A DNA stretch of 64,000 bases from Puteibacter caeruleilacunae (lineage in GTDB: Bacteria; Bacteroidota; Bacteroidia; Bacteroidales; Prolixibacteraceae): NCBI GenBank assembly GCA_005217565.1, contig SJCO01000009.1, positions 1 through 64,000 on the forward strand, read 5' to 3'. The notes below the pieces were generated by a model. It saw only the letters and a program-made list of their open reading frames with translations, was not told the origin of the DNA and did no database searches. This document shows positions 1,347 to 22,516 of the stretch, in pieces. A program made the translations under genes and the position numbers. The number at the start of each line of letters is the position of its first letter. Position 1 is the first letter of the stretch.

Positions 1347-1368
1347 AATTTTCAATTATTAATTGTGA

Positions 1369-1680: not shown

Positions 1681-1693
1681 CTAAGAGGTATAT

Positions 1694-2562: not shown

Positions 2563-2574
2563 ATTATTGAATTT

Positions 2575-3060
2575 TTAGATCATATATCCACTTGTTTGGT
2601 TCAACTCTGCTATCGAAATTTCACCATCTTGACCATTTTGAGGATCATGTACAATCCACTTATCTCCATTTTGATTTAAACCAATAATAATTACTGCATG
2701 AGAGGAACTTCCATTGCCTTGCCAACCAGAAATGGTATTTGGATCAAAAACTAATATTTTATTTCTTAACGGATCATCCCATAACGAACCTAAAACACCT
2801 GCTCCAAGATTATCCATATCACTATAGCTTCCTTCGAATCCATAGTTTGTGCTATCAAATGAACTTCCATAATAGTTGCTAGCTAGATTTTCAGCATCAA
2901 TTGCGCTATAGCTAGTCCCACAACTATCTAAATATGCCAAACACCTCCAGATACAATCACATGGATCATACCCACCCATAACACAAATTATATCCTTACT
3001 TTGTAATACAGGAAAATTGTTCTCCATCTCTTTCAAACTCAATTTATTCAATTTTTTCAT
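2575..3060 (-). CDS. Double-glycine-leader protein with a papain-like cysteine hydrolase domain
   Basis: The 161-residue product starts with a leader (MKKLNKLSLKEMENNFPVLQ) ending in Gly-Gly at residues 29-30, the type cut by C39 peptidases. The rest looks like a small papain-fold enzyme: CDCIWRC at 34-40 carries the candidate nucleophile (Cys36), SSHAVIIIG supplies His121, and WIVHDPQNG supplies Asp139 or Asn142. The spacing resembles C39 and NlpC/P60-like hydrolases. Without the leader about 131 residues remain, far larger than a bacteriocin. The gene lies 43 bp behind the C39-ABC exporter gene, which is probably its secretion route. Possible roles are a peptidoglycan amidase or endopeptidase effector, or a maturation protease; the sequence does not decide between them. 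Confidence 0.75.
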   Translation of the reverse strand: MKKLNKLSLKEMENNFPVLQSKDIICVMGGYDPCDCIWRCLAYLDSCGTSYSAIDAENLASNYYGSSFDSTNYGFEGSYSDMDNLGAGVLGSLWDDPLRNKILVFDPNTISGWQGNGSSSHAVIIIGLNQNGDKWIVHDPQNGQDGEISIAELNQTSGYMI

Positions 3061-3103
3061 TCTTACTATAGTTTTAAGGTTTAAGATTATTGTTAACTCC
3101 CCT

Positions 3104-5332
3104 TTAAGCCGGGGATAGTTGTTTTTCTTCTTTCGGAGAACTTTGCCACAGTCCCATCTGTTTTTGCACTAGATCCGCATAATGACCTTTCTTTTCCATT
3201 AACTGCTGATGGTTACCGATTTCTGTTATGAAACCATCACGCATTACCACAATCTGGTGAGCATGCATAATCGTACTTAAGCGGTGTGCAATTACAACTA
3301 CGGTTCGCTTATCAAAAGCTTGATTCAGTGCTTGTACTATTTTGTGTTCATTGATAGCATCCAAGGCATTGGTTGCTTCATCCAGAAACAAATAAGGAGG
3401 AGACTTATAAAGAGCTCTGGCAATAAGAATACGTTGTTTTTGTCCTCCACTTAAACCTCTTCCAACTTCACCTATCTTTGTCTGGTATCCTTGAGGCATT
3501 TGTTCTATTTCTTCAGCAATATGAGCTATACGTACTGCTTCTCTTAGATTCTGATAATTCACAGTCTCATCATCAAGAACGATGTTATTGAGAATAGTGT
3601 CATTGAAAATCTTTCCCTCCTGCATTACAACTCCACAGTTGTCACGCCATTCCCGTAAACTTAAATTGGAGATATTCATGTTGCCCAATAAGATATCTCC
3701 ATGTGTAGGATGGTAAAGTCTACATAGCAGTTTTAATAATGTTGATTTTCCACTTCCACTACCTCCTACTATGGCTGTAATTTTGCCTTCTGGGATTAAG
3801 AGATTTATCTGCTTCAAAACGAATGGTGCGTTGGGAGTATATTGAAAAACCAGGTTACGCAATTGAAGACTTTTGTTCTCAGGCATTACCATATTATTGG
3901 ATACTTGAACTTCTTCTTCATCCTTCATCTGATGAATTTCATTTATTCTTAGGAAACTTATCTTAGCATATTGAGCAGAAATAATGAATGAAACAAATTG
4001 ACTCAATGGGGCATTTAGCATTCCAATGATAAACTGTGTTGAAATCATTACACCAAAAGTGATTTCTCCCATTATTACTGCCTTGGCACAATAAAAAACG
4101 ATAGCCAGATTTTTTATGCTATTGATAAACTGTGCTCCCAGATTCTGGAAGTTTGTCACATTCAACACCTTCAAATTAACCTTGTAAAGTTTCGCTTGAA
4201 TATTTTCCCACTTCCATCGCTTTTGTTTTTCGTAATTGTTGATTTTAATATCACTGATGGACGAAACTGTTTCCACCCAGTAACTTTGATTCCTGGAGAT
4301 CAGATCGAAATATTCCCAATCAAGTTTCTTTCGTATTTTTAAGAAACCCAATACCCAAGCTACATAGAGTACACTTCCTGCCAAAAAGATTGAGAATATA
4401 ATTGGATTGTAAACCAGTAATATAACACCAAATGTGATAAACGTAAGCGATGAGAATACCAGGTTAAGTGAGTTATTCATGATAAAACTACGTATCCTTT
4501 CATGGTCTTGTGCCCGTTGCAGAATATCTCCAATCATCTTATTCTCAAAGAAGGTGACTGGCAACTGCATTAATTTGATTAGATAATCAGATATAAGTGC
4601 AATGTTTACGCGAGCAGTAATGTGGAGTAACAACCAATCCCTTACTGCACTTGATATGGTTACGCTTAAAATTATCACAACATTTGCAATGAGTACCAGG
4701 TTAATGAAGTCAAGATCCCGTGTCTGTATTCCTACGTCAATTACCGCTTTGGAAATAAATGGTAATACTCCCTGTAATGCAGTAGCAATGAGCATCACTA
4801 CCATAATGGTTCCAAAGTTGCGCTTATAGGGAGCAAAATACCCAATGATATTTTCGAAGGTCTTTTCTCTTTCTGTTTTATCCTCTAAGTCGCGTTGAAG
4901 AAAGTCTGCCATGGGCTCTATCGCCAACAAAGCTCCTGCATTTTCACCATCTTTGTACCAATTCCTCTTAAACTCTTCGTGCGTATATGACATCAACCCC
5001 TTTGCCGGATCAGACACATATACCTTTGTTTTTGAAGTGTCATAAACAACAATGAAGTGACTGTTTTTCCAGTGAATTATGCAAGGCATAGGAACCTTCA
5101 GGTGAAGGTCCTCAATGGTTCCTTTCACTGCAAGTGTATGTAAACCTATTTTTTCAGCTCCATAACTGAGATCCAGAAATGATACACCTTCTCGTGTTAT
5201 TCCACACAAATCTCGCAAATAAGGTAATGAGTAGTATTTTCCAAAATGCTTGGCTATGATCTTTAATGCTGCCGGACCACAATCCATTGCATCTAGTTGG
5301 TGCTCAAATGGGAATTTTTTTAATCTCATCAT
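3104..5332 (-). CDS. Peptidase-containing ABC exporter (C39 peptidase + ABC transporter)
   Basis: This 742-residue protein has the full architecture of exporters that cut double-glycine leaders while transporting the cargo. The N-terminal C39 peptidase keeps Gln12, Cys18 (DAMDCGPAALK), His92 (SHFIVVYD) and Asp108. A six-helix membrane domain spans about residues 165-460. The ATPase carries Walker A GGSGSGKST (523-531), signature LSGGQKQR (from 627), Walker B YLFLDE (to 652) and the H-loop His at about 683. The start overlaps the LanC-like stop by four bases (ATGA), so translation is coupled. Likely substrates are the two leader proteins encoded just downstream. No complete hlyD adaptor gene is present in the window; the one here is truncated. 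Confidence 0.95.
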   Translation of the reverse strand: MMRLKKFPFEHQLDAMDCGPAALKIIAKHFGKYYSLPYLRDLCGITREGVSFLDLSYGAEKIGLHTLAVKGTIEDLHLKVPMPCIIHWKNSHFIVVYDTSKTKVYVSDPAKGLMSYTHEEFKRNWYKDGENAGALLAIEPMADFLQRDLEDKTEREKTFENIIGYFAPYKRNFGTIMVVMLIATALQGVLPFISKAVIDVGIQTRDLDFINLVLIANVVIILSVTISSAVRDWLLLHITARVNIALISDYLIKLMQLPVTFFENKMIGDILQRAQDHERIRSFIMNNSLNLVFSSLTFITFGVILLVYNPIIFSIFLAGSVLYVAWVLGFLKIRKKLDWEYFDLISRNQSYWVETVSSISDIKINNYEKQKRWKWENIQAKLYKVNLKVLNVTNFQNLGAQFINSIKNLAIVFYCAKAVIMGEITFGVMISTQFIIGMLNAPLSQFVSFIISAQYAKISFLRINEIHQMKDEEEVQVSNNMVMPENKSLQLRNLVFQYTPNAPFVLKQINLLIPEGKITAIVGGSGSGKSTLLKLLCRLYHPTHGDILLGNMNISNLSLREWRDNCGVVMQEGKIFNDTILNNIVLDDETVNYQNLREAVRIAHIAEEIEQMPQGYQTKIGEVGRGLSGGQKQRILIARALYKSPPYLFLDEATNALDAINEHKIVQALNQAFDKRTVVVIAHRLSTIMHAHQIVVMRDGFITEIGNHQQLMEKKGHYADLVQKQMGLWQSSPKEEKQLSPA

Positions 5333-6420
5333 ACGGTTAACTTTATTGGAGTATTCGACAATATATAAGCAAGATGAAGTCCAAATTCTCCTAATAATAA
5401 ATCAGTTTTAGATATTCCACCTTTACCTGAATTTAACCATTGTTCAAAGTTGAGTTCTTCTCTAATGGTATATTGAAAATCCTGAATACCAAAACTTAAT
5501 TTCGAACTAACTGCCAACTTTGTAAATAGATGTAAAACAAGAGCTATGCCTCCTTTTCCAGTTCTAAGAGTAACATTCCTTCTTGTAAACTCATTGGATA
5601 AGATTTCTTTCAAATCTATTGTTTGACTAAGCAATTCGGCTGAAGCTTTCCATCGCTTTGAACTAATTTTCACCGCAATTTTCTCTAGCCCTAACAATAG
5701 ATACGCTCTATTGCTATGTTTTTGTGGAAGCAATGTCAATACCTCTGCTTCTATTTCTTTGAGTATTTGAATTATTTTAGAGTTATAGAGGTTAATATTT
5801 AAACACTGCTCTAATACAATCAACAATAATGGCACATCCCATAAAATATCGAATGAATCTGGCTCATTAAAATTGATTTTTTGACTATCAACAGCTTCTG
5901 CTAATTTGTTAATAAGTTCTATTAATAGCTGCTTTTGTAAATATTGAGTTGTTGGATTATTTGTACTCCGTAACCGTGTAAGTACATATGAGATATAACC
6001 TAATAATCCACTCGATAAACCAATATTCCATGCATCATTTGCAACTATCTTATGAAACACCTTATCATCAATACTCTCTAATACTTCATCTGTATTCGCG
6101 TCTACAAATTCATTCTTAACCAGATATTCAATACCCCATCCAATGCCCGTTAGACCATACTCAAAATCGGTAGACAGAGAACAAGTTTGAATTTCCATAA
6201 ATAGATCATCTAAAAGCTCTTCAGCTAGGATTTCCCATTTTTTATCGCTAGTAAATCTAAATAAATGATAATAAAAGATCGTCATTCCAAGTTTACCATG
6301 AAATAGTCCCAAATCTGCGTTGATAATATTGTGAGAAATACTGTCATTATTCACATACTGTACATCGGTAGATATTTTATATGGTCTTTTTTTATTCATT
6401 GCCATGTTGTTTTCATTCAT
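5329..6420 (-). CDS. LanC-like alpha-toroid protein lacking zinc ligands
   Basis: The 363-residue product resembles Bacteroidota LanC-like proteins: LGLFHGKLGMTIFYYH, YGLTGIGWGIEYL, GLSSGLLGYISYVL, TGKGGIALVLHLF and LLLGEFGLHLAY are the repeated Gly-rich turns of the alpha/alpha toroid. True lanthionine cyclases bind zinc with two Cys and a His (WCxG and CHG motifs); these are absent, so lanthionine cyclisation is unlikely. I place the start at the ATG at 6420; the frame stays open to a GTG at 6540, adding 40 Cys-containing residues that do not look LanC-like. The gene is translationally coupled to the exporter. It may bind or chaperone the leader proteins; that is a guess. Confidence 0.7.
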   Translation of the reverse strand: MNENNMAMNKKRPYKISTDVQYVNNDSISHNIINADLGLFHGKLGMTIFYYHLFRFTSDKKWEILAEELLDDLFMEIQTCSLSTDFEYGLTGIGWGIEYLVKNEFVDANTDEVLESIDDKVFHKIVANDAWNIGLSSGLLGYISYVLTRLRSTNNPTTQYLQKQLLIELINKLAEAVDSQKINFNEPDSFDILWDVPLLLIVLEQCLNINLYNSKIIQILKEIEAEVLTLLPQKHSNRAYLLLGLEKIAVKISSKRWKASAELLSQTIDLKEILSNEFTRRNVTLRTGKGGIALVLHLFTKLAVSSKLSFGIQDFQYTIREELNFEQWLNSGKGGISKTDLLLGEFGLHLAYILSNTPIKLTV

Positions 6421-6581
6421 GTATTTACTTATATAAATTTCATTAATTATGCATCCATCTAAAGGTGTAAGCAATCCACCAGCCGACTGGACATAACAAT
6501 TCCATTTAGGTAAAAATCTGCAACAGATTAAACCTATCACAACTAGCTCTTACACCAAGGAGTATAATATTTAGCTATAAG

Positions 6582-9259: not shown

Positions 9260-12200
9260 TTATTGGTTATCACTATTAAAAAGCAGCTCATTTACTTTTT
9301 CTACATACATTGATTCAAACAAAAATATCCAATCACTGTTTACCGTACGATTGGCATTGTGTGAATGATGATTCTGCGAAAGCTTATATCCCAAGCCTTT
9401 ATGTAAATGGCGAGTATGCGCGTAAACATCTGCTAAATTAGAACGAAGCAACAGGTACCTCTTAAGCAACTCGCTTAGTTTAGATTTATTAGCTGAATCT
9501 GGTGCTTTATCATATCGTTCCAGTGCCAGCAATAACTGCGAAGTAAAAATCTGATATTCATTAATAGCATAAAAAAATTGAAGTGTATAACGATTACGAA
9601 CAGCTGTCTTCTGCATTCTTTCCAGTTGATCTTTTATGCTGCTATAGCGTTGTATTTCTTGTCTTGCCAATTTTAACTGACTACGGTATTTATTGCTCCA
9701 CTCCCCTGGATTTGCCTCGTCAGGCACATCAATATGTTTAAATCTACCATGATTTTCCCACATATGAATACGCACGCCTTCAGCCAACAATGCCTGTTCC
9801 CAAAACTGCATTCCATCACCCAATTCATCTTGAAATGCATATTTTGAAGCATTACATCCAAACTCACGTAAACGGTATACTTTATTGAACTCTTCTTCAG
9901 TACGTTTATCCACACTCCATCCATATTCTGCCTGTGCAATATATCCTCTCCAATGCGTCTCAATATGCGGTGAAGCATCATCCCAAGCAGTACATACAAT
10001 ACCTTCAAGTTTTTTTTCTTTCGTTAACTTTGAGAACTCAGAAATATAGGCTACTCGTCCGTGATGGCGAGGCATCATATTCTCTGTACACTGTGCAGCT
10101 GTAGCTGCCATCACCTTCAATCCACTTTTTTCATACCAGTCAAGTGCCTTGATATTACCCACTATACCTGGAGATTCATAATTCCATCGCATATAAATGC
10201 AATCTTTTGGAAAGCGCTCAATTTCTTTCGACAATTTTCCTTCTCCTTTATTCCACATAGCAATGGCTTGTTCCTCCGGCAATTTATCATCATAGGTTGC
10301 CCTATATGAACCAACCAGCTTAAACACCATATCATCCCAAAATATTGGAGTACGACCTTGCTTTTTTATGAACTCACATACTTTAGCCAACCATTCCAAC
10401 TGTAACTGCAATGACGTTTTCCCCGATTGCTTACATAGCGCACAATTACCAAGACCCCCAACTTCATCACCTCCTATATGTACATATTTTCCATGTGGAG
10501 TAGCACGAATAGCATCTTCATACAGAGCGAATTGCATCTCATAAGTCTTGTCATTACTCGGACAGCAGGTCCAGTCGGAGTTTTTATCTTCTCTTATATC
10601 ATAGAACTCCTCATGTTTCAAAATGAAATCGGCATGCCCCAGTCCCTGAACTAATGGAGAGATCTCAATATTCCGTTCTTTTGCATAATTACTAATAGCG
10701 ATCCACTCATCAATTGATATCGACTGCATAGCACCAACAGTCGGCATCTGCTCATAGCCAATCTTATCTTCCAACTCTACAATAATCCCATTAATTTTAT
10801 AACGTGCCAATCGATCAATATAATCATAATAGTAGTTGGTATGATCAAGATGATGTTTCAAATCCAGGTGGACAGCCCGAAAGTCAATATCTGGATAATC
10901 GGTTATTTTGCAACATGGAATTAAACGGTCCTGTTCTTTTGCATCTTCCAGTAACTGATTCAATGTTTGTCCTCCATAGAACAATCCTGCAGTACTACGC
11001 GCATAAATAGTAATTGCATTATTCTGAATAGTTAGTTGATAGGCTTCTTTGTGATTGGGTATATCAGCATTTGGATCTAACGAAAAAGAAACAACCACAC
11101 CTTTCCTGGGTGAGTCGAAAGGTAAATCAGCTAGTTGGGTCCCCAAAACAGGCAATTCACAGTCCTTTGTATCAATACGCACAATATTCTCAACTTTAAT
11201 TCCCCTTCCCTCCTTTAGTTGAATTGATTTTGGTGAAGGTAAGATATTGATGTCAATAAACTTTTCTGAACTTTGCTCAGCCTCTTTAACGTATTTCTCC
11301 AGGCATTGCCCATACTCATGAATAGTATTATCAACCTTATTCTCTCCATATTGTTGTCGATAATCAGCATTAATCCAGGCACCAAAACATGTAACAGATT
11401 TGACACCAAAACTAGTATACTGCTCAACATCACGATCGCAGTATTCTTTTTTCCATGGGATTTCAATCAAATTATCTTTCTTCCATCGTGAAAACATAGA
11501 TACATCAAGCCAATACTCCAAAATATGGGCTGTTTCAGCAGGAAAGACCTCCAGGTTTTCTTTTATATTGTTGATATGTCTCTCTTCCAGAGGCTTTGAA
11601 TAATCCCTCCCAATTGGAGCATATTCAAGAAATATCCCCTCCTTAGGTTTTACTTTCTTTGGAGCCTTTAACGACGTAGTTAAATACGCCAAGTGTGCCA
11701 ATGTTGCCTCAGGATCAATCTTCCGTAAAATCTCTAGTAATCGGTTCTCGTACATCAGTGCCAATTCACTTTGAGAATATTTCCTACATTTTTCACAATG
11801 ACAAAAAGCATGCTCTACATCATCGGTCCAAAAGAAATAGCGATGTGTGGTTGGTTTGAGCCATTTACACACTTTCTTTAGATGCTTTTCTATTTCCTTG
11901 TACGCCCCCTCTGAATGAAAACACATATTATACTTCGACTGACGCACTCCTTCTGAATCAATGCGAAAATATTCCGGATGCTTGTCAAAAAGATCCCGCG
12001 GAAGAATATCCTGTAAAACATGAAGTTCAAACTCAATGTCGATATTCTCCTTCTTACACAACTGTTGTAGTAACTGCCCATCTTTACTTTCAAGATAATC
12101 CTTTAATTTCGGCAAAGTTTCAAACCTAGTGTCGGTATGTATACCTAATAAATTAAGCTTTGCCGCTTTTAGTTGCGACACCCAATACCTAGCTCCCAGC

Positions 12201-12346
12201 GACGATAAATCACTTGGGTAAACCACCACTCCTCGATAGGCCTTCTTTTGTACTGATTCTAATTCGGCACATTTCGCTTCGTTTGTTGTAGTGAATACTG
12301 TTAATACAATTAGTAGCAAAACAGCTACTTGTTTCCAATGAATCAT
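9260..12346 (-). CDS. Fusion of a DUF4838-like barrel domain and a GH20-type hexosaminidase-like enzyme
   Basis: This 1028-residue secreted protein (signal peptide to about residue 27) has two enzyme-like halves. Residues ~38-355 form a barrel-type domain with a CHCEKC cluster (182-187) like that of DUF4838 proteins. From 366 a GH20 N-domain begins (ILPSPKSIQLKEG, AYQLTIQNN, GLFYGGQTLNQLL), followed by the GH20 catalytic barrel (DFRAVHLDLK, LGHADFILKHEEF). HIGGDEV at 623-629 holds the Asp627-Glu628 pair expected of substrate-assisted beta-N-acetylhexosaminidases. About 200 helical residues follow. It likely acts on an N-acetylhexosamine-containing glycan; the role of the first half is unknown. 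It is the first gene of the operon with the GH78-like enzyme, behind the 12450-12478 operator. Confidence 0.82.
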   Translation of the reverse strand: MIHWKQVAVLLLIVLTVFTTTNEAKCAELESVQKKAYRGVVVYPSDLSSLGARYWVSQLKAAKLNLLGIHTDTRFETLPKLKDYLESKDGQLLQQLCKKENIDIEFELHVLQDILPRDLFDKHPEYFRIDSEGVRQSKYNMCFHSEGAYKEIEKHLKKVCKWLKPTTHRYFFWTDDVEHAFCHCEKCRKYSQSELALMYENRLLEILRKIDPEATLAHLAYLTTSLKAPKKVKPKEGIFLEYAPIGRDYSKPLEERHINNIKENLEVFPAETAHILEYWLDVSMFSRWKKDNLIEIPWKKEYCDRDVEQYTSFGVKSVTCFGAWINADYRQQYGENKVDNTIHEYGQCLEKYVKEAEQSSEKFIDINILPSPKSIQLKEGRGIKVENIVRIDTKDCELPVLGTQLADLPFDSPRKGVVVSFSLDPNADIPNHKEAYQLTIQNNAITIYARSTAGLFYGGQTLNQLLEDAKEQDRLIPCCKITDYPDIDFRAVHLDLKHHLDHTNYYYDYIDRLARYKINGIIVELEDKIGYEQMPTVGAMQSISIDEWIAISNYAKERNIEISPLVQGLGHADFILKHEEFYDIREDKNSDWTCCPSNDKTYEMQFALYEDAIRATPHGKYVHIGGDEVGGLGNCALCKQSGKTSLQLQLEWLAKVCEFIKKQGRTPIFWDDMVFKLVGSYRATYDDKLPEEQAIAMWNKGEGKLSKEIERFPKDCIYMRWNYESPGIVGNIKALDWYEKSGLKVMAATAAQCTENMMPRHHGRVAYISEFSKLTKEKKLEGIVCTAWDDASPHIETHWRGYIAQAEYGWSVDKRTEEEFNKVYRLREFGCNASKYAFQDELGDGMQFWEQALLAEGVRIHMWENHGRFKHIDVPDEANPGEWSNKYRSQLKLARQEIQRYSSIKDQLERMQKTAVRNRYTLQFFYAINEYQIFTSQLLLALERYDKAPDSANKSKLSELLKRYLLLRSNLADVYAHTRHLHKGLGYKLSQNHHSHNANRTVNSDWIFLFESMYVEKVNELLFNSDNQ

Positions 12347-12412
12347 TTTAGTTAATTTTTGAGATAATGTAAATTCCTTGATTATAGTTTTAGTATCTTA
12401 TTTTTTGTGTTC

Positions 12413-12420
12413 TAAAATTA
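12413..12420 (-). promoter_or_regulatory. -7 element of the GH20/GH78 operon promoter
   Basis: On the minus strand TAATTTTA resembles TAnnTTTG and lies about 20 bp after a TTGTG element that abuts the TGTCAAAA operator. This arrangement fits an activator bound next to the -33 element. Confidence 0.4.
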
Positions 12421-12449
12421 GAATCACTGCTCTCCCTCCACAATGCACA

Positions 12450-12478
12450 TTTTGACAATTAAAATATCCTTTTTGACA
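12450..12478 (-). promoter_or_regulatory. Two-site direct-repeat operator (21 bp period)
   Basis: On the minus strand TGTCAAAA occurs twice, at 12478-12471 and 12457-12450, exactly 21 bp apart; the proximal copy is followed by TGTGCATTGT. The same arrangement occurs at 32808-32836 upstream of the ECF sigma gene. A 21 bp spacing places the sites on one face of the helix, as with AraC-type activators. The cognate regulator is not evident in this window. Confidence 0.65.
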
Positions 12479-12480
12479 GG

Positions 12481-12938
12481 GATTTGCATGATTTAGTTAC
12501 CGTTAAGGCGAACGGTGCCTTCAGCCTGTTTTAGTAGCCTTATTAAGGGCGGATTTTTCTTGAACTATTTTATAAAAGTAAGAGAACAAATCTAACATTA
12601 CAATACTGTTTTTTTGCTAACTTCATCATCAAGGTAATCAGCTATCGTTCATTAGAAATTGCATCTCCGTAAGATGTATTGTTTTATTTAAATGCTACAT
12701 GAATAGCACAAATACCGAAAATGTAAGCTAAATCTCTACCGTCTGATAGTGAGAAAAGTCCCGATATGTGGCGGTTAATATCCCCTTACTTCTTCTTTAT
12801 ATTTATTTCCAAAATAATATCACGCGATTAACAAATTTGAATGAAACTTTACTCAAATTTGTAAGATATCCTCCAGCTAGGAGGTATTTTTGGTCAAAGT
12901 GGCCCGCTAAAAAGTATAAAATAGCATTAAAAACAAAA
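12481..12938. other. Intergenic stretch without a recognisable gene
   Basis: No convincing gene is present. It contains a 6 bp inverted repeat (12499-12504 with 12511-12516), a small hairpin (12870-12884) and GGTCAAAGTGGCCCGC at 12892-12907, which recalls the repeated ends of IS21-type elements but is too short to call. Confidence 0.4.
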
Positions 12939-12962
12939 GGGCACAAGCAATTACCTGTACCC
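12939..12962 (-). terminator. Intrinsic terminator behind the DUF4838 gene
   Basis: GGGCACA (12939-12945) pairs with TGTACCC (12956-12962), allowing one G-T pair, around a 10-base loop. On the minus strand it is followed by TTTTGTTTTT. It separates the DUF4838 gene from the GH20/GH78 operon. Confidence 0.75.
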
Positions 12963-13030
12963 CTTGATCTGTAATTTTTTCAATAAAAGCAATTTATGAG
13001 TTTTTAAACACCAACAAACTTCTTTTTCTT

Positions 13031-15124
13031 CTACTTTTCTTTCTTCATAAAAACTTTCAGCTTTGCGCCTTCAGGTCCCAATACTTTTATGCGTACTTCA
13101 TACTTGCCCATGTCAAAGAAGTTCGATAAGGATATTAGTGCATTATCATATCCAATAACACTTTTTCCAACAACTCGACCATCCTCTAAAAGGTCAGCTG
13201 TAATTAGTTTGCATTTTTGCAAACCTGCATCAATAGTAATCTTCCACTTACCGGAACCTTTAACATATTGACCAACATGAAATTTAAAGATATTTTCACT
13301 ACTTGTCCGAAGATGGAATTCTGCCATCGGTTTATCTTTTTTAGTAGCAATATTCTTGGGCATCCATCCCATTCGCCAGTTCAAATACTGATCCTGTATT
13401 GAAGCTCCATCTTGTTGTTCGGTATGCAATTTTGCAAATGAAATAAGTTCCTTAAAATTTTCGTCAGTACTATTTACCACATAAGTTGATTGAAGTATCA
13501 TATTCTCCAGATAGAACGCAATGTGTTGCACGCGTTTATTGATTATCTCATCTGAGATCCCATTTCTCAACATCTCCACCTCTTTGTAAACCTCTCCACT
13601 TCTCTGCTGAAGTTTCTTGCACCTTTCAATTACACTCTTACGATCCCTGCTGGTAGTATCAAAATAGCCCCCCTCCTGCACATAATATAAGATCTTCTCA
13701 AAGATTGAATAAACCTTATCAGCATAATTGCCATAATAGATATCGCAGTAATTTTTGAGCAAAGATTTGGTATCCACTTTATCATCCCAAAGTGTTCTTC
13801 CAAAGAAATAATAATTAAAAGAACCTCGCCACCAAGTCTGCAAACCCAAGTACAACGAAGCAGCCCCTCTGAATCCATTTACAGCCAGATAATTTGCTTT
13901 TTCAATAGCATCATCCGGGCGCAGCCATACCATTCCACGGGCCCGCCAATGATCTGCCATATAATACTCAAACTTACATACTCCTTCAGCATGTGCTGCT
14001 GCTTTTATCCAGTCTTTCTCCAACTGTGTGCGCACTCCCAAATCTGGGCAATACAAAATATTAACATTGCTACTGAGCGGTTTCTGGGGAACAACAAAAG
14101 TTGCATCTTTATACGACAGATACTCTACTATTTTTTCTGGGTGGACCTTTTTAATATCTTCCGCCAAAGTATTTATTGCATTAACTACCGTCTCGGGATC
14201 CTGACATTCCTTACAGGAACAATAACCTCCACCATCTAATGGCCAAGTACCAACAATATCCACCCAAGGCTTATCTTCCAACCACTCAATAAGTTTTGCT
14301 GAATAATATTTCATTGCAGCCTTGTTGCTATAACAAATCTGTCCTTTTGTTCTCTTTCCATTAATCTCAGCAAACCACTCAGGATGCTCTTTAAACAACT
14401 TATCTTTATCAAGATAACAATGCGTATTGTGTTCTCCCATGTTAATTATAAAGTCGCGTTTAAGCAACTCTGGCAGCAATACTTTTTCGGTCTTCCCCGT
14501 AAAAAACACCTCCTGTGCAAGACCTGCTGCTCCAGCTGGACGATCTTGAGATAACAGCACATAGTTATATCGCTGTTTTGCCATCCAGTCAATCACCCTT
14601 CCGGTAATCTCGATTTGATCATCTCTTACTCCATAAAGTGCAATACCGCGCCACTCAACACGCGGATTAATGAGTTCATTGCAAAGATTAACTTGTTTAA
14701 TCTCGGGTACAATTTCTTGTGCAGGATCAGGATAAAAAAAAGCGCATCCCTGCCGCTCAAGAAAGTCATACACTCCGTAGAGCAAACCTCGTCCCATAGT
14801 TGCAGAAATGGTTATTCCATTTTCATCAACCTTTAGTCGATAACCATCCCACTTTATACCGGCCGATTTTTTAAGCAACTGCAATTGAATAGAATGATTT
14901 CCATTTCGTTTAACTTTTCCTTTCTTAATTTCGAGACTTTGATCAGTCATCTGTTTCCAATAGGAAGCCAGTTCTTCAGCAGCAAAGAGAGCTGTTTGAT
15001 CTTTAGTGTCTACTACAATTGTCTTTATCCTTGAAGTGCTCAAGGATTGATACTTTTCGGCCATTGTTACACTTCCTATCAAAAGAAGTACCAACAAAAC
15101 CAACAGTTTTCTGTTTTCCATCAT
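13031..15124 (-). CDS. DUF4838-family secreted glycan-active protein
   Basis: The 697-residue product has a signal peptide (KLLVLLVLLLIGSVTMA). Residues ~25-150 look like the small alpha/beta domain found ahead of glucuronidase- and hexosaminidase-type barrels (AAEELASYWKQMT, GLLYGVYDFLERQGCAFFYP). The middle barrel is of the DUF4838 type, with GEHNTHCYL and the cysteine cluster CSCKEC, probably a metal or structural site. A C-terminal beta domain follows from about residue 590. The catalytic activity of the family is not established to my knowledge; its members sit in Bacteroidota glycan loci. The gene forms its own unit, bounded downstream by a terminator. The same cysteine-rich barrel theme recurs in the first half of the GH20 fusion protein. 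Confidence 0.75.
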   Translation of the reverse strand: MMENRKLLVLLVLLLIGSVTMAEKYQSLSTSRIKTIVVDTKDQTALFAAEELASYWKQMTDQSLEIKKGKVKRNGNHSIQLQLLKKSAGIKWDGYRLKVDENGITISATMGRGLLYGVYDFLERQGCAFFYPDPAQEIVPEIKQVNLCNELINPRVEWRGIALYGVRDDQIEITGRVIDWMAKQRYNYVLLSQDRPAGAAGLAQEVFFTGKTEKVLLPELLKRDFIINMGEHNTHCYLDKDKLFKEHPEWFAEINGKRTKGQICYSNKAAMKYYSAKLIEWLEDKPWVDIVGTWPLDGGGYCSCKECQDPETVVNAINTLAEDIKKVHPEKIVEYLSYKDATFVVPQKPLSSNVNILYCPDLGVRTQLEKDWIKAAAHAEGVCKFEYYMADHWRARGMVWLRPDDAIEKANYLAVNGFRGAASLYLGLQTWWRGSFNYYFFGRTLWDDKVDTKSLLKNYCDIYYGNYADKVYSIFEKILYYVQEGGYFDTTSRDRKSVIERCKKLQQRSGEVYKEVEMLRNGISDEIINKRVQHIAFYLENMILQSTYVVNSTDENFKELISFAKLHTEQQDGASIQDQYLNWRMGWMPKNIATKKDKPMAEFHLRTSSENIFKFHVGQYVKGSGKWKITIDAGLQKCKLITADLLEDGRVVGKSVIGYDNALISLSNFFDMGKYEVRIKVLGPEGAKLKVFMKKEK

Positions 15125-15432: not shown

Positions 15433-15528
15433 TTATATGAAATTTTGCGCCACAAAAGCAATAATCACTCCTAACATGACTATATAAAGGGTAAGCATTA
15501 GTAACTCTGATCCTTTGTTCTTATTCAT
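15433..15528 (-). CDS. 31-residue single-helix membrane peptide at the end of the rdh-like operon
   Basis: The ATG at 15528 overlaps the stop of the rdhC-like gene (ATGAATAA), so translation is coupled. The peptide has a charged start (MNKNKGSE) and one hydrophobic helix (LLMLTLYIVMLGVIIAFVAQ). It is similar in size to small subunits of membrane redox complexes. The function is unknown; a helper of the flavin/iron-sulfur membrane protein is a reasonable guess. Confidence 0.5.
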   Translation of the reverse strand: MNKNKGSELLMLTLYIVMLGVIIAFVAQNFI

Positions 15529-16675
15529 TTTTCTTGTCTTTTATGTGGTTTGCTATTTTTTGTCTTGATGAAAGAACAAGGTTGAAACAGGCTCCTACCG
15601 GACAAAAGTAGCGGCAAAAGAAATCGGAACTCAGTAAAGCCCCAATTAACGAAACTGGCAAAATATACCACTGGATGCCAACTCCTTCCAGCGAAAAGAA
15701 CATGGCAAAAGGTTCGTATGATAACAACGATGGATTTTTTGAAACCAGGATAAGTATGAGCGACACCCATAACAATATTTTTGGTGTTTTTATCAGAATT
15801 CGTCCCAATTTGGGCGGAAGCTTAAAGTTTACTCCCGAAAACTTGTTCAATAAAATCTGAGTAGCATGAAAAGGACAAATGGCCCGACAATATATATTCT
15901 TTTTCAAGAATAAAATCACTAACAAATTACCAAATAAAAGCAACCAATATATAAAATGCTGTTTAATATCGGGGATATAACCAAGTATTAATCTCCCGAA
16001 ATGAATAATGGAAACCGACCCGTTGATAATAAAACCTGTTAAGACAAATGATAATCCCAATACCAAATAGCGTAATTTTTTGAGCTTAAATTGAAGCGAC
16101 AAAAATGCTAGAATAAAAATAACGAGCATGGCAACTTCCTTCCAGCTGAAATTCCATTTGGTCTCAATAACAGGAGTTTGCAGATGAAAACAATCGTTTG
16201 CCATATCCCTCGATGCATAGCGGGTGGCTATAGCAATGGCTTTTGAGCTAATGGTTGCCCCTGAAACGGCATTCAAATCATCGCCTATCAGGAATTTATC
16301 GTTTACTTTTTTCTTAAGGAATTGGGTAAAATATTGTTTACTGCGAAGCCGTTCGAGATAGGCTTTGGTTTCCCGGTCGTGTACCACTTCAATGCTTAAC
16401 AAGTTACCCACAGAATCGCATAGAGCCAAGGTTTGCAATGGGCCTCCGTAACCTTGTGCGACTCCTGTTTTGGCGTAGGCAATAAATTTACCTTCCGAAA
16501 AAGTTTTAACAATTCCTCCCGTTACAACAATACTATCGATTTCCAGATTCTCAAATGCTTTGGATGCAGAAAAAATTTCTTTCACACCCCGGTTGGTTTG
16601 CCCAATAAAAAAGGCAATCAACAGGCTTGCCAACACAAACCCGTTAATTGCCATCGATTTAAAGTTCTTAGTCAT
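15521..16675 (-). CDS. rdhC: RdhC/NosR-like membrane protein with FMN-binding domain and Fe-S motifs
   Basis: The 384-residue protein has an N-terminal helix, a periplasmic FMN-binding domain ending in SGATISSKAIAIA (138-150, the threonine that takes covalent FMN), then about five membrane helices. Two CxxxCP motifs sit on the membrane domain: CRAICPFHA (Cys263, Cys267) and CRYFCPVGAC (Cys354, Cys358), as in NosR, PceC and RdhC. Family members are thought to pass electrons from quinol to a periplasmic reductase or to help mature it. Its start overlaps the end of the rdhB-like gene by 8 bp. Because the gene follows a TAT-exported rdhA-like gene and an anchor gene, RdhC is a better fit than NosR. 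Confidence 0.85.
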   Translation of the reverse strand: MTKNFKSMAINGFVLASLLIAFFIGQTNRGVKEIFSASKAFENLEIDSIVVTGGIVKTFSEGKFIAYAKTGVAQGYGGPLQTLALCDSVGNLLSIEVVHDRETKAYLERLRSKQYFTQFLKKKVNDKFLIGDDLNAVSGATISSKAIAIATRYASRDMANDCFHLQTPVIETKWNFSWKEVAMLVIFILAFLSLQFKLKKLRYLVLGLSFVLTGFIINGSVSIIHFGRLILGYIPDIKQHFIYWLLLFGNLLVILFLKKNIYCRAICPFHATQILLNKFSGVNFKLPPKLGRILIKTPKILLWVSLILILVSKNPSLLSYEPFAMFFSLEGVGIQWYILPVSLIGALLSSDFFCRYFCPVGACFNLVLSSRQKIANHIKDKKNE

Positions 16676-16961
16676 TTTTTAACTGATTTTTCAAAACCGT
16701 CCTCCGGCCTGTCAATACCAATAAGATGGCAGGTATGCCAAAAACCATCAACCCCATGCTGGCTGCCCTGGGCACTCCTTCCAATACCGAGCTAACCGAC
16801 CATGCCAGGCAAAAGACTAATAAAAAACTACCAATGCCAAGCAGAGCCCAGCTTAATGCTGAGAATTTATACTTTTTGTTGTAACGAATAAGCGATATGA
16901 TTATTAAGGTTACCATAACACCTAATGTGAAGAACAATATTTCTATTCCTGTAAAAACCAT
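16668..16961 (-). CDS. rdhB: RdhB-like three-helix membrane anchor
   Basis: The 97-residue protein consists of three hydrophobic helices (about residues 5-25, 36-55 and 68-85). The stretch EGVPRAASMGLMVFGIPAIL matches the pattern of reductive dehalogenase anchor proteins, where a Glu-Pro/Ala segment precedes an FGxPA helix. It lies 17 bp behind the rdhA-like gene and overlaps the rdhC-like gene. Its expected role is to hold the catalytic subunit at the outer face of the cytoplasmic membrane. Anchors are short and poorly conserved, so the call rests partly on gene order. Confidence 0.75.
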   Translation of the reverse strand: MVFTGIEILFFTLGVMVTLIIISLIRYNKKYKFSALSWALLGIGSFLLVFCLAWSVSSVLEGVPRAASMGLMVFGIPAILLVLTGRRTVLKNQLKND

Positions 16962-16978
16962 AATTTCATGTTTAATAA

Positions 16979-18400
16979 TTATTGACCGTCATAAGACCTA
17001 TTGCTTGCATCAAAAAACTTATCTACTTTTTCAGGATTATCAACATCTCCGTATCCGAAAGCAATATCCATTTCGCGCATAAAATCGTGCACCGGACCGG
17101 GCATTAGTTTAGTAATTTTATCTACCAATCGATGGTGCCAGAAATCTGGTTTATTATATGGACAGGCAGCCACACATGAGCCACAGTCGCTTCCGAAATC
17201 GCCCCAAACTTTAATACATTTACGGGCATCCATATAGTACTTTTTTATACCCGTAGAATTGTACCAGGCATTATCGTATGGAGGCTCAAAAGTGGGTTCC
17301 GTATCAAAAGAGATCGCTTTTCCAGGACAGGCATCAGCACAGCGTTTGCAATTCTTACAAAAATCCATTACCCCAAATTCAATGGGTTTGTCGTATTCTA
17401 CAAAATCGAGATTGGTATAAACCTTTGCCAGTCTCACACGCGGACCATATTTATAGGTAACAAGTGTCCCCATCCGTGAGCCTTCGCCAAGTCCTGCTGC
17501 AATTGCATAAGGAACACTCATCCCCACATCGTTACTGGCCGGCACAGCCATATACCCAAGTTGTTTCAGCATTACAGAAAGCTGATAAGCAACCTTTGTC
17601 ATGCGTGTATATCCTTCACCAACTGCCGCTCCGCCTAAATGAGTGGGAGCTGCTGCAATACACTCGTAATCCTCTTCAAACGCCAGAACGATAACCGACT
17701 TAGGCTCGAACGGAAATTTCTCCCAGCCGTAGACCGCTTCATCTCTTTTCCCCTGCAACATGAGATTGCCATCAAAAAAATCGGTATAATCCCATCGTTT
17801 ATCACGTTTGGTAATTCCAATTAAATCGGCACCGAACAATCGTGCTGCCCGTTTTATAGCATTCGACGCTTCCTGCTTATCTCTAAATTTATATTTCTCA
17901 TCACTCACCCAGTCTTTGCTACTATGCGAACCTTGCTTACCCTCTGCTTCTGAAAGTTGTTCCCATTTTAGGATACCCTGCCCTGCCTGGCTAAAGCAAG
18001 CATTGGCCGACACCGCATGATGAAGTGCCCATCCGCCGGCATTAATGGCAGCACCTAGTTGATCCCAACCTTTTTTACTGTTATCGTGTTTTTGGTTGTT
18101 TTCAATGAAACGGTGACCGGAATTCAGAATATCAGTATCCTCAGGATGTGTGCCAAACAGAGCTCCTGAGAAGAGCAAATCCATACTACTGTGTCGCTTA
18201 AAAGTACTATTAATTTCGTAAGGAAATTCGTCGTGAACCTTTATTAAATTGGGCCCAACGTTCTTGTTCACTTTTTCAACCAATTTTTCCCTGCCTTTTG
18301 CTGGAATACTAATGGCACCAATTGCAGCCCCGGCAACTCCAACTTTTAAAAAGTTACGCCGGTTTATGGCATTATTGTTCTTAGAATTTAGTTTATTCAT
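16979..18400 (-). CDS. rdhA: Reductive dehalogenase catalytic subunit (RdhA-like), TAT-exported
   Basis: The 473-residue protein starts with a twin-arginine signal (RRNFLKVGVAGAAIGAIS). The core shows RdhA features: PASNDVGMSVPYAIAAGLGE, GTLVTYKYGPRVRLAKV, and two C-terminal [4Fe-4S] motifs, CKNCKRCADACP (Cys348, 351, 354, 358) and a second set Cys395, Cys406, Cys409, Cys413 ending CGSCVAACPYNKPDFW. The spacing of the second set and the phrase GIKKYYMDARKC before it are typical of cobamide-dependent reductive dehalogenases and separate this family from plain ferredoxins and queuosine reductase QueG. With rdhB- and rdhC-like genes behind it, it is a respiratory-type enzyme, probably reducing an organohalide in the periplasm. 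The substrate cannot be told. It is divergent from the AraC-type regulator. Confidence 0.87.
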   Translation of the reverse strand: MNKLNSKNNNAINRRNFLKVGVAGAAIGAISIPAKGREKLVEKVNKNVGPNLIKVHDEFPYEINSTFKRHSSMDLLFSGALFGTHPEDTDILNSGHRFIENNQKHDNSKKGWDQLGAAINAGGWALHHAVSANACFSQAGQGILKWEQLSEAEGKQGSHSSKDWVSDEKYKFRDKQEASNAIKRAARLFGADLIGITKRDKRWDYTDFFDGNLMLQGKRDEAVYGWEKFPFEPKSVIVLAFEEDYECIAAAPTHLGGAAVGEGYTRMTKVAYQLSVMLKQLGYMAVPASNDVGMSVPYAIAAGLGEGSRMGTLVTYKYGPRVRLAKVYTNLDFVEYDKPIEFGVMDFCKNCKRCADACPGKAISFDTEPTFEPPYDNAWYNSTGIKKYYMDARKCIKVWGDFGSDCGSCVAACPYNKPDFWHHRLVDKITKLMPGPVHDFMREMDIAFGYGDVDNPEKVDKFFDASNRSYDGQ

Positions 18401-18469: not shown

Positions 18470-18494
18470 ACGTTCGGAATTATTCTCCGAACGT
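18470..18494. promoter_or_regulatory. 25 bp inverted repeat in the rdhA/AraC divergent region; candidate operator
   Basis: ACGTTCGGA (18470-18478) and TCCGAACGT (18486-18494) are perfect inverted 9-mers with a 7 bp spacer. The site lies 70 bp upstream of rdhA and 124 bp upstream of the regulator gene. It is a likely binding site for a dimeric regulator or a hairpin in the rdhA leader. Nothing else in the window matches it. Confidence 0.5.
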
Positions 18495-18617: not shown

Positions 18618-19727
18618 ATGTCTGTAAATTCTCTTCTTGTTTATTGTATGCTTCAAACCATTGGAATTATGATTGTGCTGTTTCGAAAAAAGTTCAGGAC
18701 GACACCAAACGTAATTCTTAACTTTTTAATGTTTGAGCTATTTGTAAAGTTTATTTATCAATATATTGAGCTGGAAAAAATTAATGTTCCCTATATAGAA
18801 CCATTTTATTACCTTATTAGGGCATTAGGGCCAGTTGCGATCTATTTTTATGCTCGGGTAATATTAACTGGTAAAATACCGGAATTTAAAAAAGTAATCC
18901 CCTGCCTTGTGGTTCCACTACTTCTATTTGTTCTTCATGCTTTACCCGATGGTTCACGGGCTTTTATTGAGGAAAGTAAGAATGGTATCTCGGCGATATT
19001 ACTGATTTTATCTTTTCTAATTTTTCCGCTGATTATTGTTTATGAGTACGCTAAATTCTATCAGCTAAAATATTTCGAATTCTATAAAACATTTACTTAC
19101 AATTCAGGACAAACATCGTTAATTGCTATTATCATTCCATTATGTATAGGATCAGGTCTAATGATATTGGGAACCAGGATAGTTTATTTATATTATCCCC
19201 ATCTGATAACACAAATTGAAATTGCCGGTGTTTTTTATTCGGTTATACTTAGCTATTTATTTGCTTATATGGTTATTGTTTCCCCAAAGGTTATTCACCA
19301 TAAGAAATCAAAATTTGCCTTACAGGAGTTTAAAAAGTATGACTGCTCGGGGTTAACTGCTGATGAAGCAAAGCAAATATCGAACCGACTTTGTGATTAT
19401 TTTGAAACATCGAAACCATTTCTTAATCCTGAACTCAACCTAAAAATAGTAAGTCAGGAGCTTAATGTTTCTGCAAAAAATATTACTGAAACTTTGAATG
19501 GTCTTATTGGACAAAATTTTAACGATTTTACGAATAATTACCGCATTGAATATTTCAAACAACTGTTAAAGTTAGAGAAGTTTAAAAATTATTCGATTCT
19601 GGCACTGGCTTTTGAAGCAGGCTTTAATTCAAAAACTACTTTTAATACGGCTTTCAAAAAATTTACAGGCCAAACACCATCAGAGTATCGGAAAAAGATT
19701 GAGCTTAAAAGAAGGAAAAACGAATAA
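18618..19727 (+). CDS. Membrane-bound AraC-family transcriptional regulator
   Basis: The 369-residue protein has about seven hydrophobic helices in residues 1-220, then a cytoplasmic AraC-type DNA-binding domain (about 265-365) with two helix-turn-helix units: LKIVSQELNVSAKNITETLN and ILALAFEAGFNSKTTFNTAF, followed by KFTGQTPSEYRK. Proteins with this layout are common in Bacteroidota and probably sense a ligand in or at the membrane. It is transcribed away from the rdhA-like operon, so control of that operon, perhaps by the halogenated substrate, is a fair inference. A strong TAnnTTTG promoter lies 35-42 bp upstream. Confidence 0.88.
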   Translation: MSVNSLLVYCMLQTIGIMIVLFRKKFRTTPNVILNFLMFELFVKFIYQYIELEKINVPYIEPFYYLIRALGPVAIYFYARVILTGKIPEFKKVIPCLVVPLLLFVLHALPDGSRAFIEESKNGISAILLILSFLIFPLIIVYEYAKFYQLKYFEFYKTFTYNSGQTSLIAIIIPLCIGSGLMILGTRIVYLYYPHLITQIEIAGVFYSVILSYLFAYMVIVSPKVIHHKKSKFALQEFKKYDCSGLTADEAKQISNRLCDYFETSKPFLNPELNLKIVSQELNVSAKNITETLNGLIGQNFNDFTNNYRIEYFKQLLKLEKFKNYSILALAFEAGFNSKTTFNTAFKKFTGQTPSEYRKKIELKRRKNE

Positions 19728-19813: not shown

Positions 19814-20788
19814 TTATTTAAGTAATTCATTGATATTTTCTGAGTATACCATTTTTTTCTCAATATCAGAAAGCTCCAGAGATTCAATAAAATGGATTGT
19901 TCGCTCATCATAATCAGTGGTTTCAATGAAAAAATCAGAGGCAAAAACCAGATGTTCTATTCCGACAAGGTCTTTTGCACAATTGAATGCTGACTTACTC
20001 CAATTTAAGGACGTGTCTAAATAGAAATTCTTCATGTATTCAGAAGGCAATTTGATTAATCGTTCTGAATAGCCGGGAAGAAAACTTGGGATTTCGAAAG
20101 GCACATCAATTCTTCTTGCCATGTAGGGTAATGCTCCGCCCATATGGCTTAGAATAATTTTAACGTTTTTGAATTTCTCAAAGAAACCAGATAACACAAG
20201 CTTAACTGCTGAGAGAGTCGTATCAAATGGAAACGCCAGGAGCGTTGGTCCCTCATCATCCTTATAAAATGACGAATATAAAGGATGTATAAAAACCATT
20301 AAATCTCTACGGGCAACTTCTTCCCAAAAGGGTATAAATTGGGGATTATCAAGATAGAGTCCATTTACATTTGAAGGAATAACAATTCCCGAAGCTCCAA
20401 GCTCGTCCACGGCTCTGGCTATTTCTTTTATGGTTTCCGGCATATCATTTAATGGAAGTGATACCAGAAACTTAAAACGTTCTGGGAATTCGTTACATGC
20501 TTGTGCTAATGAATTATTTACAGCACGACACAAATCTGGTGTATTTTCATCTAACTTATTATAGATAATCGGATTCTGGATGACCTCTATATCAATTTCG
20601 GCTTTATCCATTTTATCTATTCGCTTCTGACCATTCCAGGCAGGCAGAGGAGTTTTTGCCCAAATTGCATATTTACTTCCATCATCATTAGTATGTAGTT
20701 CTATCAATTCAGGATAGTACTTTTGCATTGCTTCCAAAGCTTCCCAAGGGAAAGCATGAGTATGACAATCAATCTTTTTCATATTCAC
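19814..20788 (-). CDS. Amidohydrolase-2 family metal-dependent hydrolase or decarboxylase (ACMSD-like)
   Basis: The 324-residue protein has no signal peptide and should be cytoplasmic. It shows the amidohydrolase-2 pattern: DCHTHAFPW at the start (HxH metal site), FIHPLYSS and ILSHMGGALPYMARR with the further histidines, and LVFASDFF with the last metal-binding aspartate. The family includes aminocarboxymuconate semialdehyde decarboxylase and several aromatic-acid (de)carboxylases. The gene starts 6 bp behind the lipoprotein amidohydrolase and belongs to the same operon. The substrate is unknown. Because the dehalogenase operon is adjacent, a link to aromatic ring metabolism is tempting but unsupported. 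Confidence 0.82.
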   Translation of the reverse strand: MNMKKIDCHTHAFPWEALEAMQKYYPELIELHTNDDGSKYAIWAKTPLPAWNGQKRIDKMDKAEIDIEVIQNPIIYNKLDENTPDLCRAVNNSLAQACNEFPERFKFLVSLPLNDMPETIKEIARAVDELGASGIVIPSNVNGLYLDNPQFIPFWEEVARRDLMVFIHPLYSSFYKDDEGPTLLAFPFDTTLSAVKLVLSGFFEKFKNVKIILSHMGGALPYMARRIDVPFEIPSFLPGYSERLIKLPSEYMKNFYLDTSLNWSKSAFNCAKDLVGIEHLVFASDFFIETTDYDERTIHFIESLELSDIEKKMVYSENINELLK

Positions 20789-20794
20789 TAATTT

Positions 20795-22516
20795 TTACTT
20801 TTTATAGACTATTTTTCCATCCATCATTGTTAGTAGTACTTGGATATGATGGACTTCGTATTTTTCTGTTTCGAAAGGATTTGCAGAAAGGACTATTAAA
20901 TCGGCCAGTTTGCCTTTTTCCAGACTTCCTACTTTATCTTCGAGACGTAACTGATAAGCTGCATTAATAGTGTATCCTTTTATGATTTCTTCCATACTTA
21001 ACTTCTCTTTAGCCATAGGTATTACCCTGGAATTAGGTTTATTGGGTTCCTGTCTGGTTTGTCCAATTTCCATTGTATATATCGGGGAACTCTCCCAAAG
21101 ACTACTTCCTGATGCAGGGAAATCGCTTCCTAATGATACACAAGCGCCCGACTCGAATAAAGAATGATTTTGAAATTGTTTGTCAGTACGATCCTTCCCA
21201 ATAACTTCTACCCAAAAGTTGTAATAAGTATCGTTTACATCAAATACCCAGTTAGGCGAAACCTGTGCAATTACACCAAGTTCATTGAACCTGGGCAAGT
21301 CCGGACTATCAACAAGTTGCACATGACACATTGTATAACGGCTATCAGATATTGGATACTTATTTTTGGCTGCTTCAAATGCATTTAATCCTTCGTGTAT
21401 TGTTCGGTCGCCAATAGCATGCATGTGTATATCTATATTATTTGCCCGGGCTCCTGAGAAGATCGAAGTTAGCGTAGCCTGGTTGAATAAAACCTCACCT
21501 TTATTACTGGGATCGTTGCTGTAGTGTTTTTTTAATGCAGCAGTTTTAGCCTCTATTGTTCCGTCATTAGGAATTTTTATTGCCAGCATGTCAAACAATT
21601 CCGACTTATACTTTTGGGATAAGTACTGAAAATCTTCTATTGCAGTTTTTGCCGCATGTTTATTGGTTACATAGTGAGTTCCTTTATATCTTAATGGAAG
21701 CCTATCCTCTTTTTCAAGTTGTATTAAAGCTTTAAAAGCATTTTCCTGGACATTTGGCACACCTGCATCCATTAAGGCTGTTACCCCCATCTTCGAGAAT
21801 ACAGGTAACAGTTTGGCATATTCCTTTTCGAAATCGGCTGTTGTTCCAAGCCCTAATCTCGACAGGCATGGCCAAAAGGTATCTCCTTCAACACACCAGC
21901 CCGTTGGATTTCCATATTTATCTCGCTTGTAGTAATGCACATTGGGCTGCGGATCTTTTGTGTTTTTATTGATATTTAATAACTCAAAGGCTTTGGAGTT
22001 CATCCAGGCACTGTGAGCATCTGTTGAAATAAGCATTACAGGCTTGTCATTTACGATTTTATCAAGAATAGACTTGTCGGGCTCTTTTCCCTTAAAGATA
22101 TCGAGAGACCAACCAAAACCGAAAATCGTTTTCTTGTTCGGATTTTCCTTCACATACTGTATCAGTTTACTTTCAAGCTCTTTTAAGGATTTTACACCTA
22201 TCAGTTCTACCCCGGAACTAATCAATGTAGCAACTCCCGGATGTATGTGCGATTCTATAAATCCCGGCATCATAAACTTACCGTTTAGATCTGTAAGAGA
22301 AGTTTTGTCCCCTTTGTATTGCATTGCGGCATGCTTACTTCCCACATAAAGAATTCTATTCTCTTTTATGGCAATGGCTTCTGCGAAAGGCTGTTCTGGA
22401 TCTACCGTATAAATATTGGTATTGAAATAAATTCTATCTGCAATTTCCTTCTTTTGCTTACTGCAGGAAGTCAGGCTAAATAGAAAAACGAATAAATAAA
22501 TCAGACTCTTTCTCAT
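20795..22516 (-). CDS. YtcJ-like amidohydrolase-3 family lipoprotein
   Basis: The 573-residue protein has a lipoprotein signal (YLFVFLFSLTSCSK, lipobox cysteine at about residue 18). The amidohydrolase domain shows GFIESHIHPG (HxH), ISTDAHSAWMNSKAF, DIHMHAIGDRTIHEGLNAF, CHVQLVDSPDL, LGSDFPASGSSLW and a typical C-terminus (GSLEKGKLADLIVLSANPF), all features of YtcJ and N-substituted formamide deformylase relatives. It probably hydrolyses an amide or imide in the periplasm or at the surface; the substrate cannot be inferred. It leads the operon with the ACMSD-like gene. A Crp/Fnr-like palindrome lies just upstream. Confidence 0.88.
   Translation of the reverse strand: MRKSLIYLFVFLFSLTSCSKQKKEIADRIYFNTNIYTVDPEQPFAEAIAIKENRILYVGSKHAAMQYKGDKTSLTDLNGKFMMPGFIESHIHPGVATLISSGVELIGVKSLKELESKLIQYVKENPNKKTIFGFGWSLDIFKGKEPDKSILDKIVNDKPVMLISTDAHSAWMNSKAFELLNINKNTKDPQPNVHYYKRDKYGNPTGWCVEGDTFWPCLSRLGLGTTADFEKEYAKLLPVFSKMGVTALMDAGVPNVQENAFKALIQLEKEDRLPLRYKGTHYVTNKHAAKTAIEDFQYLSQKYKSELFDMLAIKIPNDGTIEAKTAALKKHYSNDPSNKGEVLFNQATLTSIFSGARANNIDIHMHAIGDRTIHEGLNAFEAAKNKYPISDSRYTMCHVQLVDSPDLPRFNELGVIAQVSPNWVFDVNDTYYNFWVEVIGKDRTDKQFQNHSLFESGACVSLGSDFPASGSSLWESSPIYTMEIGQTRQEPNKPNSRVIPMAKEKLSMEEIIKGYTINAAYQLRLEDKVGSLEKGKLADLIVLSANPFETEKYEVHHIQVLLTMMDGKIVYKK

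Follow-up and report, generated by a model that had tools for sequence, protein, structure and literature searches.

A complete rdhABC gene set predicted to encode an exported, membrane-anchored reductive dehalogenase in Puteibacter caeruleilacunae (Bacteroidota)

Introduction

The closest described system to the genes analysed here is the PceA2B2 complex of D. hafniense TCE1 (PDB 8q4h; pceABCT). In its catalytic subunit, DhPceA, residues K489, H495, R499, D515 and Y520 are near the menaquinone, and the glutamates of the EXE motif are proposed to carry protons from menaquinol oxidation (PMC10624902). According to the same study a tyrosine and an arginine (Y246 and R305 in SmPceA) are the essential residues.

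Reductive dehalogenases (RDases) have also been described in Bacteroidota. RdhC in Bacteroidetes has been known since 2018 (PMC5928378), and hybrid RDases, which have no Tat signal, are reported in Marinilabiliales (PMC6797604; also remarked on in PMC10624902). RDase genes are found in 112 Bacteroidota genomes, and Bacteroidales RDase transcripts in PCE-dechlorinating cultures (PMC12090745). The regulators characterised for rdh genes are of the CRP/FNR, two-component and MarR types (PMC12090745).

Here we analyse an rdhABC locus in the first 64,000 nucleotides of contig SJCO01000009.1 of P. caeruleilacunae (Prolixibacteraceae, assembly GCA_005217565.1), a stretch that we call the window. An earlier note on this DNA named Chloroflexota, Firmicutes and Proteobacteria as the phyla best known for organohalide respiration. 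The operon is indeed present in this Bacteroidota genome, but it is no longer a surprise, as both rdhA (PMC12090745) and RdhC (PMC5928378) had already been published in the phylum, and the discovery of RDase genes is therefore modest.

Results

The three genes lie on the reverse strand, all in the same direction from 18400 down to 15521 of the window: rdhA (16979..18400), rdhB (16668..16961) and rdhC (15521..16675). The gap between rdhA and rdhB is 17 bp and rdhB overlaps rdhC by 8 bases, so that transcription as an operon is likely. The earlier note had claimed a TAT-exported RdhA-like protein with both Fe-S motifs, a three-helix RdhB-like anchor and an RdhC-like flavoprotein in one operon, and all four parts agree with the features described below. 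It had placed the set at 15433-18400, which fits the genes except that the start lies 88 bases beyond the final stop codon. As judged from sequence, this is confirmed as a genuine and complete rdhABC set, predicted to encode an exported, membrane-anchored and B12-dependent dehalogenating enzyme.

No rdhT or rdhK was recognised among the genes adjoining the operon, and no flanking repeats were found around it. Ahead of rdhA there are only -7-like boxes, with no convincing pair for a Bacteroidota-type promoter. A Crp-type gene 4.4 kb away is not found beside the operon of G411, the genome with the nearest RdhA in the tree below. The two amidohydrolases at 19814-22516 are also absent there and were rejected as members of the system. 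A link to organohalides of marine algae, drawn in the earlier note from the neighbouring glycan loci, could not be upheld: the hydrolases that flank the operon resemble rhamnosidases, GH20 and GH116 enzymes and fucosidases and are absent beside the G411 operon (on a short contig), leaving natural algal organohalides as the substrate unsupported by both the neighbour types and the comparison.

Elsewhere in the window, region 849-6540 is probably a lanthipeptide-like cluster: besides small proteins whose leaders are of the GG type (849-1355, 2575-3060) it encodes a C39-peptidase ABC exporter (3104-5332) and a LanC-like protein (5329-6540). Two genomes encode a ferredoxin-nitroreductase protein in the neighbourhood of an rdh operon, possibly by coincidence: it lies 17 kb away in the window (35362-36189) and 4 kb away in G074 (L039:13940-14767).

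RdhA (473 aa) obtains 200.5 bits with the curated NCBIfam RDH model TIGR02486 (cut-off 160.35). With an E-value of 5.6e-59, above the curated cut-off, the match is not due to chance. The Tat motif RRNFLK is found at residue 14 (RRxFxK), the first Fe-S motif, CxxCxxCxxxCP, is CKNCKRCADACP at residues 348-359, and the second consists of C395 and CGSCVAACP at residues 406-414 (CxxCxxxCP). Among solved structures, PceA of D. hafniense (8q4h, E 1.1e-75) ranks first by PDB sequence and profile matches, followed by PceA of S. multivorans (4uqu), NpRdhA and QueG. Residues Y264, N290 and R323 align with Y246, N272 and R305 of SmPceA, in columns that are invariant across 20 aligned sequences.

The AlphaFold model of RdhA has a pLDDT of 77 and a pTM of 0.81. 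Its best fold match in the PDB is 8q4h_A (E 4.4e-32, TM-score 0.69), and the next 21 are S. multivorans PceA chains. From family model, PDB match, motifs, fold and tree we predict a Tat-exported catalytic subunit, a reductive dehalogenase with a corrinoid and two [4Fe-4S] clusters; homology and residues agree on the predicted binding of cobamide. Pfam PF13486 matches neither RdhA nor anything else in the genome, and this model also matched nothing in any control genome.

RdhB (97 aa) has three hydrophobic segments, and a profile headed by it matches PceB of the solved complex (8q4h_C) with an E-value of 5.7e-9. Together with its topology and its conserved place next to rdhA in relatives, this points to a three-helix membrane anchor. 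The loop between the second and third helix is SSVLEGVPRAASMG. We treat the two-glutamate EXE motif as typical of RdhB, not as defining it. In the window the motif is degenerate, E61-G-V63, with the first glutamate kept and the second replaced by valine, a loss that is notable because of the proposed role of these glutamates as proton carriers (PMC10624902). The RdhB proteins of G411 (EGE), G074, G077 and Mariniphaga carry EXE, and the EGV variant is shared with a fusion protein of G269.

Four of the DhPceA residues near the menaquinone, K489, H495, D515 and Y520, are kept in RdhA as K417, H423, D445 and Y450, while the position of R499 is occupied by an aspartate, D427. All aligned Tat-type proteins keep the lysine, histidine, aspartate and tyrosine, and among four RdhA-like relatives that have no Tat signal, three have lost the histidine. 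The kept residues and this loss favour a coupling of RdhA-RdhB to menaquinol.

RdhB is longer in JC049 and in a Croceivirga MAG (L034:10236-11618, L047:7362-8786), where about 360 residues are added at the C-terminus; they include more helices and match no Pfam family.

RdhC (384 aa) is a membrane flavoprotein conserved in relatives, with Pfam matches to FMN_bind (1.2e-8) and Fer4_5 (3e-7). By model search it is NosR/NapH/RnfG-like, and the likeness to RnfG in the PDB spans the FMN domain. The FMN motif SGATIS starts at residue 138, fitting [S/T]G[A/S]TX[S/T], and there are two CX3CP motifs, CRAICP at 263 and CRYFCP at 354. About 25 residues remain after the second of these, and a C-terminal 4Fe-4S motif is absent from the protein. 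RdhC is usually predicted to have six helices; simple hydropathy gives about five hydrophobic segments here and does not separate six. The protein agrees with the motif definition of PMC5928378.

A phylogeny against QueG and the catabolic families had been proposed in the earlier note as a check. In a careful maximum-likelihood tree the RDases split from QueG with a support of 100/100, and NpRdhA/BhbA and the hybrid RDases are found together in another supported group, apart from the window RdhA, which groups with Tat-type RDases. It pairs with G411 (100/99) and then with G269 (98/99), and on sequence these three form a small Bacteroidota RdhA clade. The end branch of the window RdhA is 0.55, versus 0.29 for G411. 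The tree does not fix the branching order among this clade, D. hafniense PceA and the Tat-type groups of Prolixibacteraceae and Oceanirhabdus. A quick tree that left out G411 and G269 united the window RdhA in one group (98) with PceA of D. hafniense and with the Prolixibacteraceae and Oceanirhabdus RDases of the Tat type.

Tat-type rdhA genes of this group are found in 5 of 140 Prolixibacteraceae genomes, where a lower-scoring, helix-bearing type of RDase is commoner. In a sample of 393 genomes from the order, five have a match to the window RdhA at 1e-40, the window genome included, and a search of the families of G411 and G269 did not find it to be more widespread there. The plasmid collection contains no close homologues, only distant RDases with at most 33.6% identity. 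The order A-B-C is also present in G411, G077, G074, Mariniphaga anaerophila and JC049, the last with an enlarged RdhB and two rdhA genes. In G074 the operon and its TetR gene are flanked by 2.1 kb direct repeats (L039:3563-5682 and 11274-13399) that are 96% identical and accompanied by a reverse transcriptase gene, group II intron-like. The sporadic occurrence, together with these repeats and the reverse transcriptase gene, suggests that rdhABC operons of this kind are mobile.

One protein of G077 (L036:2893-4140) is RDase-like, has neither Tat signal nor helices and groups with NpRdhA/BhbA (100/99), though it is much shorter. By sequence it is possibly a catabolic-type RDase in Bacteroidota.

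In G269 (contig C155, L115:8657-10360, reverse strand) RdhB, Tat signal and RdhA are fused in a single frame of 567 aa, followed by rdhC. Three helices with RdhB similarity (45 bits) are joined by a basic linker to SRRNFLG and its hydrophobic stretch, and RdhA comes last. The fusion is known from one MAG, 82% complete, and was not seen in six family mates of G269. It carries a Tat signal and so differs from the published hybrid RDases, which have none. The window genome also contains a second RDase-like gene, of the hybrid type (L040:9084-10451, reverse strand, at about 263.1 kb of the window's contig), with three N-terminal helices, an ERER motif and no adjoining rdhB or rdhC.

Divergent from rdhA, a gene at 18618..19727 (forward strand) encodes an AraC-family protein (HTH_18, 1.5e-16) whose hydrophobic segments form a membrane domain of roughly seven helices. 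A homologue in G411 (209 bits, HTH_18) immediately precedes rdhABC on the same strand. Given this linkage in two families, the protein is probably the local regulator of rdhABC. In G074, G077 and Mariniphaga a TetR-family gene adjoins rdhA instead (L039:10494-11090 in G074; L037:6989-7582 and L038:7445-8044 in the other two). A text search of the open-licence literature found no paper whose title and abstract tie an AraC-type regulator to RDases. Between rdhA and the regulator gene there is a perfect inverted repeat, ACGTTCGGA-N7-TCCGAACGT (18470..18494). It is the sole copy in the window at up to 3 mismatches (0.01 expected), was not seen by eye in the intergenic region of G411, and might conceivably be an operator.

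The window genome was probed family by family, including the cobamide genes that the earlier note had suggested searching for. TatC, ApbE and MenD are present. CobC, CobS, CobT, a CobU-like protein, CbiL and an ABC importer are clustered at 100-109 kb of the window's own contig, C212, CobQ, a CobD-like protein and CbiB are on C1, and CbiD and CbiA are on C100. Two scores are just below their cut-offs, CobU (160.5 versus 161) and CobD (284.1 versus 290.55). On these genes, full cobamide synthesis by the organism is likely. This one contig of 328 kb (G000:C212) holds the rdhABC operon, the hybrid RDase and the cobamide cluster. No NiFe hydrogenase was found in the genome, which makes H2-driven dehalogenation by the NiFe route unlikely.

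Discussion

We consider it highly probable that RdhA and RdhB form a complex of the PceA2B2 kind, a menaquinol:organohalide oxidoreductase, together with the flavoprotein RdhC. This reading draws on the gene set, homology, motifs, clade, fold and cofactor-supply genes, all taken directly from sequence. Counting against it are D427 in place of the quinone-pocket arginine, the lost second glutamate of EXE, the absence of a NiFe hydrogenase, the lack of a recognised rdhT or rdhK next to the operon, and the five rather than six helices that hydropathy gives for RdhC.

In the scheme that we infer for activity, substrate use, menaquinol coupling and regulation, RdhA would be loaded in the cytoplasm with the corrinoid and two [4Fe-4S] clusters and exported by Tat, and RdhB would hold it at the inner membrane, on the outer face. 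Where the C-terminus of RdhA meets RdhB, menaquinol would give up its electrons, which would travel via the two clusters to the cobalt. The carbon-halogen bond would then be reduced, the proton coming from the catalytic tyrosine. RdhC would carry FMN that ApbE has attached and may aid electron transfer or maturation, and the membrane AraC-type protein would turn the operon on upon a signal. Such a complex may support growth by organohalide respiration on its presumed substrate.

The same enzyme could however have a different physiological role, as an electron sink or in detoxification (facilitated fermentation), with no energy conserved by organohalide respiration. We give this role a considerable chance, somewhat short of even. 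It would suit a large genome (8 Mb) with a single such operon and no NiFe hydrogenase, a window rich in glycan-utilisation genes, and the sporadic spread in the family and order, whereas the kept quinone-pocket residues and the presence of rdhB favour menaquinol coupling.

Reduction of a natural, non-halogenated substrate by an RdhA-like complex is unlikely. The catalytic Tyr, Asn and Arg of PceA are invariant and PceA is the nearest characterised enzyme, although the sequence of an RDase does not reveal its substrate and the clade of the window, G411 and G269 has no characterised member. We find it very improbable that the operon is decaying, with intact frames and lost function: the degenerate EXE motif and an end branch longer than that of G411 would fit, but none of the three frames is broken, no catalytic or cluster residue has been lost, and the E-G-V variant, shared by the G269 fusion, is not private to the window. 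An identity as the epoxyqueuosine reductase QueG or as an RDase of the catabolic, cytoplasmic kind found in NpRdhA/BhbA, with which RdhA has Fe-S motifs and fold in common, is ruled out, to the extent that sequence can decide, by scores, tree and fold, since RdhA reaches 36.8 bits with the QueG model (cut-off 200), QueG chains match its model with at best E 1.9e-6 and a TM-score of 0.25-0.31 by query length, the 100/100 branch separates QueG, the genome has its own QueG-like gene (C5:181982), and RdhA has a Tat signal, an rdhB and 473 aa against more than 1000 aa in NpRdhA/BhbA.

Within the preferred reading, a menaquinol-oxidising RdhA-RdhB complex with RdhC, the less expected parts are the clade of the window, G411 and G269, the AraC-type regulator, the EXE variant and the G269 fusion. 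Tentatively, they might mark a Bacteroidota lineage of menaquinol-linked RDases with new control and anchoring. Its sensor would be a membrane AraC-type protein where characterised systems use CRP/FNR, two-component or MarR regulators, its EXE loop may be altered, and in G269 a single polypeptide combines RdhB with a Tat-signal RdhA. This polypeptide would need ordinary insertion of the helices and then Tat export of the enzyme domain, and it could help to trace the origin of single-chain RDases bound to the membrane. If the window enzyme is active, a polysaccharide-degrading Bacteroidota lineage joins the halide-releasing organisms, probably with its own corrinoid supply. The operon of the window can be put to the test, and its candidate regulator is conserved in a second family.

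Comparison with known systems

As described in the literature, the RDase genes of Bacteroidota in the Aarhus Bay enrichments (PMC12090745) resemble the window in being from Bacteroidales, and some of them are transcribed in PCE-dechlorinating cultures. The hybrid RDases of Marinilabiliales (PMC6797604) occur in Prolixibacteraceae too, with one copy in the window genome, but they lack a Tat signal and adjoining rdhB or rdhC and form a separate supported clade.

The rdhABC sets of other Prolixibacteraceae (Mariniphaga anaerophila, G074, G077 and JC049) have the A-B-C order, the Tat signal and the same broad RDase group in common with the window. They differ in that the window RdhA is in another clade and, for G074, G077 and Mariniphaga, in a TetR-type neighbour instead of the membrane AraC type.

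Compared with PceA2B2 of D. hafniense TCE1, identity is about one third, no pceT is seen, the adjacent regulator is different, and the quinone-pocket arginine and second EXE glutamate are replaced. The two systems nevertheless share their gene order, with a Tat-type RdhA first, then a three-helix RdhB and then RdhC, as well as the catalytic residues, both clusters and most quinone-pocket residues, and PceA2B2 is the best match of the window operon in both sequence and fold.
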